From positions 186,001 to 250,000 of the forward strand of contig JAJDBP010000007.1 of assembly GCA_029261295.1 (NCBI GenBank): a stretch of 64,000 bases of DNA, given 5' to 3'. Shown here one piece after another: positions 41,165 to 46,170 of this stretch. Both the position numbers and the translations under genes were made by a program. The notes under the pieces are model-generated. The model did not search any database, was not told the origin of the DNA, and saw only the letters and a program-made list of their open reading frames with translations. Positions within the stretch are counted from its first letter, which is position 1, and each line of letters starts with the position of its first letter. The DNA is from Nitrospirales bacterium (GTDB taxonomy: Bacteria; Nitrospirota; Nitrospiria; Nitrospirales; UBA8639).

Positions 41165-41455
41165 TCAGCCTACCCGGCGTTGTAATAGAATGATAAAAGC
41201 CACGAGTGTCGGTAGTGGGCAGATAATATAGGGCAGCAACCATATCCACACATTTTTCCCTCGCACTCTGGCCTGATCAAACATCCAAACAAAAATCCAA
41301 ATAACTAACAAGATATAGTTCACGGTAATCCATTGAGTTGTCCGAACATGTAACTGGCTCCCCTCCCCCCCGCCAGTCATAAAGAAAAAGATGCCCTCCA
41401 ATATGACAAAGGCTACCAGCAATCCGATAACTAACTGTTTGCTCCAGACATACAT
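41165..41455 (-). CDS. Small three-helix membrane protein of unknown function
   Basis: A 96-residue protein with three hydrophobic helices (about residues 6-26, 42-60 and 70-91) and few polar loops. LLPYIICPLPTLVAFIILLQRR ends it. No family is recognised. AAGGAG stands about 7 bases before the ATG at 41455. It converges on the potassium transporter, the stops being 6 bases apart. Confidence 0.7.
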   Translation of the reverse strand: MYVWSKQLVIGLLVAFVILEGIFFFMTGGGEGSQLHVRTTQWITVNYILLVIWIFVWMFDQARVRGKNVWIWLLPYIICPLPTLVAFIILLQRRVG

Positions 41456-41701: not shown

Positions 41702-41741
41702 TGTGAATAAGTCATGTGAACAAAAATAATCCTGTGCATAA
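41702..41741. promoter_or_regulatory. Two DnaA boxes upstream of nrdJ
   Basis: TGTGAATAA (41702-41710) and TGTGCATAA (41733-41741) are both exact matches to the reverse complement of the DnaA box TTATNCACA, 31 bases apart and in the same orientation. They lie about 107 bases upstream of the -35 box of the candidate nrdJ promoter. DnaA boxes also precede nrdAB in E. coli, where DnaA controls transcription. Confidence 0.6.
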
Positions 41742-41847
41742 CATATGAATTTTCAAGCAAAAACCCGCATCAATATTCAGGTTTTTTTAACTCACAAGTT
41801 CTGCACAGCAATCCCCACATCATTGCCAAAATTTACAACATTTTGTA

Positions 41848-41876
41848 TTGACAATTTTCCTCATCCTCTATAGATT
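41848..41876 (+). promoter_or_regulatory. Candidate promoter of nrdJ
   Basis: TTGACA (41848-41853) is a perfect -35 box. A 17-base spacer gives TAGATT (41871-41876); a 15-base spacer would give TATAGA. Either predicts a leader of about 320 bases before the nrdJ ATG. Confidence 0.55.
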
Positions 41877-42199
41877 GTGGGTCATTGGTTTTTACCAATT
41901 ATTTCTTCTGGTCTTATTTATCCTGTTTTCTCTGTCAGTTTTCGGTTTTTCATAGGGCTTGTGGATTTCTACTTACAGAAGCCTTTTTCCCGGTTTTTTT
42001 AACCGTCAAAAAGTCCCTTTTCGTAGTAGGTTTTGGAGGTGGCATGATCCTGGATTGTGCCATTATTTCGTTCCAATTCTTCTCAAGCCAATTCCCCTAC
42101 TCTGGGGAATGACGCCCAAACAGCGAACAACAGGGATGAGACGATGGTGACCAAAGAAATACCCCACTGTTCTTTCATGTCTTCAAAAGGAGACTTTTC

Positions 42200-45733: not shown

Positions 45734-46170
45734 ATTAAGAGGAAATTTAAAATACGTAGAAACCTTATGTCCTAAGTGGTCTTCTCTTAATCAAGAAGAG
45801 AATAATATTTTAAAAAAATATTATCCCCAGTTTCCACAGCTGAAAAACCTTACCAGGAAAGAAATTCATCTTTTTTGAATATTAATTATCCCCATTCGTT
45901 CACATCTCTTCCACAGTTTAGTCCATTGACACCGGTCTTCTTCCCCTATATAAGAATTCAAAATTTCGAATACGGCTTTGGTGCTTCGGCTCTCTTGAAT
46001 CAAACGGTTTCAGTCCTCTGATGACCGTTGGAAAATAGTTCCTTCATGGTCTGTGCACGTTTAGGAATCCACCTGACCCAGCAATTTCAATTCAATCTGT
46101 TAATCTGCCAAACGGTAACGGCCAATCAGAAATTGGCCTAGCAACGTATTTCCTTTTTTAAAAAATAGCC
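45734..46170. other. nrdJ downstream region with AT hairpin and DnaA-like boxes
   Basis: ATAATATTT (45802-45810) and AAATATTAT (45816-45824) form an AT-rich hairpin that could end nrdJ transcription, preceded by a weaker TCTCTT/AAGAGA hairpin. TTATCCCCA occurs at 45821-45829 and 45886-45894, one mismatch from a DnaA box. No gene was found. Confidence 0.45.

Follow-up and report, generated by a model that had tools for sequence, protein, structure and literature searches.

We found that positions 41702-41880 of the window, the whole 64,000-nucleotide stretch of Nitrospirales DNA that was analysed, are most likely the control region of nrdJ: a promoter with putative DnaA and NrdR sites that is built like that of E. 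coli nrdAB, but drives a class II enzyme. The host genome comprises 4.06 Mb in 38 contigs, of which C35 contains the window. The original prediction had named the downstream gene as a class II reductase, and its product matches PRK07562 (1924 bits, cut-off 1737). A search with PF02867 returned two stretches in one frame, both belonging to nrdJ, which is the sole ribonucleotide reductase gene found in the host genome; NrdD was found in none of the 6 genomes searched for it. We rejected a class I or class III back-up enzyme in the host, where these searches revealed none. The host also encodes one DnaA with the C-terminal box-binding domain (PF08299, 106.8 bits) and one NrdR (195 bits, cut-off 124.65). 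A match to nrdJ was present in 50 of 59 genomes searched. In G033 the gene occurs twice: the additional copy (L043, on G033:C1) matches over a shorter stretch (residues 1-1087), and its upstream region carries neither DnaA nor NrdR boxes.

The features of the region are collected in the table below. Two exact matches to TTATNCACA within 40 bases had been reported upstream of nrdJ, and both are present, on the minus strand; the predicted distance of about 107 bases to a candidate promoter is likewise correct, as 107 bases separate the end of box 2 from the TTGACA at 41848. The promoter-like pair at 41848-41876 has 10 of 12 matches. To these elements our analysis adds a third, weaker minus-strand box, promoter-proximal plus-strand boxes and two NrdR boxes on the promoter.

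Table. Positions (window numbering) and strands of the features at and behind nrdJ.
Feature	Position	Strand	Remark
DnaA box 1, TTATTCACA, distal minus-strand box	41702..41710	-	exact match to TTATNCACA; conserved in genus
Weak DnaA-like box, TGTGAACAA / TTGTTCACA	41715..41723	-	among aligned genomes, present in host only
DnaA box 2, TTATGCACA	41733..41741	-	exact match to TTATNCACA
Weak DnaA-like site TAACTCACA, first of phased array	41788..41796	+	CTCACA conserved in genus alignment
DnaA box TTCTGCACA, one mismatch, -34 from NrdR box 1	41799..41807	+	
Weak DnaA-like site ATCCCCACA	41811..41819	+	
NrdR box 1, extends to first base of -35	41833..41848	+	degenerate in window; relatives: ACACAATATTTAGTAT
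-35 hexamer TTGACA, nrdJ promoter	41848..41853	+	near-invariant in genus alignment
NrdR box 2, CCTCTATAGATTGTGG, over -10	41865..41880	+	
-10 hexamer TAGATT, nrdJ promoter	41871..41876	+	promoter match
nrdJ, class II (adenosylcobalamin-dependent) ribonucleotide reductase, 1177 aa	42200..45733	+	PRK07562
Second DnaA-box-like cluster: TTATCCCCA, GTTTCCACA, TTATCCCCA, TCGTTCACA, TCTTCCACA	45821..45915	+	
Promoter-like TTGACA / TATAAG, 17 bp	45926..45954	+	conserved in 5 sequences
Cupin-domain gene, 134 aa	46171..46575	+	PF07883

Within the genus, all 16 aligned sequences agree at the 8 fixed letters of box 1, while each of the four bases occurs at its free position; identity in the same sequences averages 57% over the 30 bp before box 1 and 61% between the boxes. 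Box 2, a perfect box in the host, reads TTATCAACA in nearly all genus relatives and lies 31-32 bp from box 1. We searched 36 genomes (20 from the genus, 16 others) with a pattern covering both boxes and obtained 18 matches in 17 of the 20 genus genomes, counts that come from related sequences and so are not independent events, and none in the 16 others. Sixteen of the 18 matches are upstream of nrdJ, one is unplaced on a short contig (G010:C134) and one lies elsewhere (G005:C12); the reversed pattern, run as a control, matched once in the 36 genomes. The genus genomes without a match are G002, which has no such nrdJ, G004, which has only the 3' part of the gene, and G011, with 103 bp of upstream sequence.

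To extend the comparison across the order, 80 nrdJ loci from a scan of named genomes were pooled with the earlier ones, giving 125 upstream regions, 107 of them distinct: 90 from Nitrospirales, assigned by title or kinship, and 17 outgroup regions, among which we counted L169 (titled Nitrospirae, 60% identical). L119 and L149 were left out because the gene start is missing. A strict DnaA box was present within 600 bp upstream of nrdJ in 73 of the 89 distinct Nitrospirales regions of sufficient length (16 had none), in 0 of 78 in the next 400 bp, and upstream of 2 of the 17 outgroup genes. The conservation in close relatives that the original prediction proposed to check therefore holds both within the genus and across Nitrospirales. 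In a set of 65 less similar Nitrospirales representatives, 49 carry a strict box, compared with a mean of 1.3 (SD 2.2) for 559 other arrangements of the same letters; the best of these arrangements, with 26, 22 and 20, seem to us to be fragments of the NrdR box or the promoter. Two outgroup nrdJ loci, L168 and L178 (one titled Nitrospinota), have TTATCCACA, near-boxes and an NrdR-like pair, and are a possible independent case.

Outside this group, the best 30 class II loci of other Nitrospirota, which are of the PRK08665 type and have approximate gene starts, include 1 with a strict DnaA box and 24 with an NrdR-like pair scoring at least 28. One Nitrospirales family (f2) has a PRK08665-type enzyme in place of the PRK07562 type of nrdJ; all 5 of the f2 loci examined have NrdR pairs, and 2 of them also have a strict DnaA box at -59. 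The box arrangement in this family and in f4 differs from that in the rest. We withdrew an assignment of the -90/-35 layout to f2, in which TTTTCCACA is part of an NrdR box. The genes upstream of nrdJ vary by family while the box module stays with nrdJ: one family has TrkH and a 96-aa ORF, and others have what we take, from sequence, to be a small secreted-looking protein or a ClpX-like ORF. We also rejected the divergent 96-aa ORF (41165-41455) as the owner of the boxes because nrdJ-linked boxes are present at the f3 and f4 loci examined, where this neighbour was not seen.

The position of the boxes was then related to the NrdR sites, which we located by scanning for two 16-bp boxes 31-32 bp apart (a 15-16 bp linker) with the consensus from the literature. 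Pairs scoring at least 28 occurred in 87 of 90 Nitrospirales regions and 5 of 17 outgroup regions, with the reversed control reaching at most 26. The pair, at 41833-41848 and 41865-41880 in the window, overlaps the -35 and -10, an arrangement also described for NrdR promoters in the available text of PMC9110341 and PMC12176259. With this pair over the promoter and nrdR encoded in the genome, nrdJ is a predicted member of the NrdR regulon and NrdR would bind here, even with a degenerate box 1 in the window itself.

Register was measured from NrdR box 1, an anchor picked blind to the DnaA boxes. Two placements of the minus-strand box recur: between -88 and -90, mostly in Nitrospira, and, in the family of the host, between -97 and -101, accompanied by a further box between -130 and -132. 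Many regions have a plus-strand box at -34 or -35. A strict minus box is in register in 72 of 87 regions (shuffle mean 0.08), rising to 80 when one mismatch is allowed (shuffle mean 1.9) and leaving 7 without even such a box in register. The plus-strand boxes are mostly imperfect: at -33 to -36, 54 of 87 regions have one with at most one mismatch (shuffle mean 0.26) and 9 have a strict one (shuffle mean 0.01). Plus-strand cores fall at about -39, -28, -18 and -9. Of 70 spacings from minus to plus box, 38 are 53-56 bp and 30 are 64-67 bp, with 75 and 110 bp once each. As the two main spacing groups differ by one helical turn, this suggests that the proteins are held on one face of the DNA at the nrdJ promoter.

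These placements bear on whether the boxes could be chance matches. The bare count is what speaks for chance: the window has 3 strict boxes where 1.74 are expected, and at least 3 occurred in 28 of 100 shuffles (the whole host genome has 129, against 90 for the reversed pattern). The number of boxes in the window is thus about that expected by chance, and the evidence rests on their position. Conservation, register and controls contradict chance, which we regard as highly improbable. Boxes are present near the promoter beyond chance, their placement is conserved and DnaA is encoded in the genome. A replication origin would also place a box cluster in AT-rich intergenic DNA, such as that around the nrdJ boxes. 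However, there is no turn of GC skew within the window; in the closed relative G018 the skew passes from negative at 980 kb to positive at 1050 kb, around dnaA at 1015 kb, with nrdJ at 1702 kb, and G053 has dnaA at base 488 but its nrdJ at 1.83 Mb. GC skew and the position of dnaA contradict an origin at nrdJ, and we rejected it as having practically no probability.

Two further explanations accept that the sites are real and assign them another role or another reader. The boxes could form a locus for DnaA titration or nucleotide exchange, like E. coli datA or DARS, that lies beside nrdJ without regulating it, and the presence of several boxes at fixed spacing in both orientations resembles those loci (PMC11317965, available part). 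However, the module keeps its register with the nrdJ promoter though the upstream neighbour changes between families, and class II genes of other Nitrospirota have NrdR boxes without DnaA boxes; we consider this explanation unlikely. A different DNA-binding protein with a DnaA-like motif might read the sites. This is very unlikely, since the free position of TTATNCACA is also free at nrdJ, where it takes all four bases, and the same motif occurs beside dnaA in most dnaA regions examined. At L001 the GTG start codon of dnaA is overlapped by a strict box, TTATTCACA (1119-1127), and the corresponding position in L097 and L098 has a pair of boxes 12 bp apart; these boxes perhaps serve dnaA autoregulation.

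Control of nrdJ by DnaA and NrdR is the reading that we prefer, and it has its closest parallel in E. coli. The original prediction had drawn a parallel with nrdAB, and the resemblance is closer than could be seen at that stage: at either promoter, plus-strand DnaA boxes stand a short distance from one another and precede NrdR boxes that cover the promoter itself. In E. coli the plus-strand boxes are TTATCCACA at -163 and TTATGCACT at -151 from the nrdA ATG, with the NrdR boxes over the promoter, downstream of the DnaA boxes (PMC12176259). Allowing one mismatch, a scan of 666 bp at nrdA gave no other box, and thus nrdAB is without the extra minus-strand boxes. It also differs in encoding a class I (Ia) enzyme and in that DnaA action is proven there, while at Nitrospirales nrdJ it is deduced. 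According to the available text of the studies concerned, DnaA and NrdR both act on nrdAB (PMC8203912, PMC12176259), DnaA can activate or repress it (PMC8203912), and the nrdA box pair binds DnaA cooperatively, with DnaA also binding nrdD (PMC11317965). The class III operon nrdDG, which DnaA binds in ChIP-seq, is similar in having a double DnaA box and NrdR boxes (PMC11317965, PMC12176259, in part), but differs in enzyme class and box layout. Streptomyces coelicolor nrdRJ shares with nrdJ the class II enzyme and tandem NrdR boxes, which are separated there by some three turns of the helix, but DnaA boxes are unmentioned (0 occurrences of DnaA in the available text of PMC9110341).

DnaA control of a reductase has been shown or proposed for class I, and DnaA binding has been shown at the E. 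coli class III operon (PMC8203912, PMC11317965, as far as available). In the literature covered on DnaA with nrdJ, class II reductase or Nitrospira, which takes in few subscription journals and so is weak evidence, we found such control described for no class II enzyme. In Prochlorococcus, dnaA and nrdJ fall in the same expression cluster (PMC10294614, available part).

From these data we infer binding of DnaA and NrdR, looping and a sign of regulation at nrdJ. DnaA would bind the two minus-strand boxes and the phased plus-strand array, which lie upstream of a sigma-70-type promoter; the tandem NrdR boxes overlap the -35 and -10 of this promoter. The level and ATP/ADP state of DnaA would set nrdJ transcription, dATP-loaded NrdR would repress from the promoter itself, and the dNTP supply from the sole reductase would answer to both replication state and dATP. 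Because the DnaA sites are upstream of the promoter and not over it, activation is the most likely sign, and we give this role about an even chance. We count against DnaA control the 16 of 89 regions with no strict box, the 7 of 87 with no minus box in register, the mostly imperfect plus-strand boxes and the deviating arrangement in families f2 and f4. A further point against it comes from one E. coli study, in which most of the DnaA regulon responded little when the ATP fraction of DnaA or its titration was altered (PMC12371093, available part).

Between the promoter and the gene lies a predicted leader (41880-42199), about 315 nt in the genus and longer than at many Nitrospira loci, with a conserved AGAAATACCCC stretch ahead of the ribosome site; transcription is predicted to start near 41882. 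A palindrome, ATTGGT-TTTT-ACCAAT (41884-41899), directly 3' of the -10, is conserved among the genus sequences and at L016, and might serve as an operator or form a 5' hairpin. No riboswitch or known RNA family reached its gathering score in this region; the best permissive match was Leu_leader (E 0.17), under its cut-off.

The near-matches TTATCCCCA noted twice behind nrdJ were located at 45821 and 45886. The pair opens a box-rich, promoter-like region ahead of a cupin gene. This region is conserved in five aligned sequences, and the core pattern of the cluster has a single match in each of 4 genomes out of the 36 searched, against none for the reversed control. We dropped a comparison with the E. 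coli double boxes because the first two sites of the cluster abut without a spacer. The cupin gene lies closely behind nrdJ in some relatives. Among 100 loci examined, a set that includes some duplicate records, 16 have a motif of this cupin behind nrdJ. Comparison of the cupin gene with defence systems and solved structures gave no useful match.

Taking these observations together, we tentatively propose, with somewhat less than even confidence, that across Nitrospirales DnaA and NrdR may form one helically phased, looped complex on the promoter of the sole reductase, joining replication state and dATP at a single switch, and that in part of the genus the nrdJ-adjacent cupin, with its own DnaA-box promoter, may be a cell-cycle-regulated partner of the reductase. 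The helical spacing is a concrete structural prediction, and as one reductase is apparent in the genomes checked, the link between DnaA and nrdJ can be tested without redundancy. If true, the presence of a DnaA module on a class II gene throughout the order would imply that coupling to replication tracks the function of the reductase and not its enzyme class. For an order that includes the nitrite-oxidising Nitrospira, conserved DnaA docking sites at nrdJ suggest that DNA supply is tied to replication as it is in E. coli, with an enzyme of another class.
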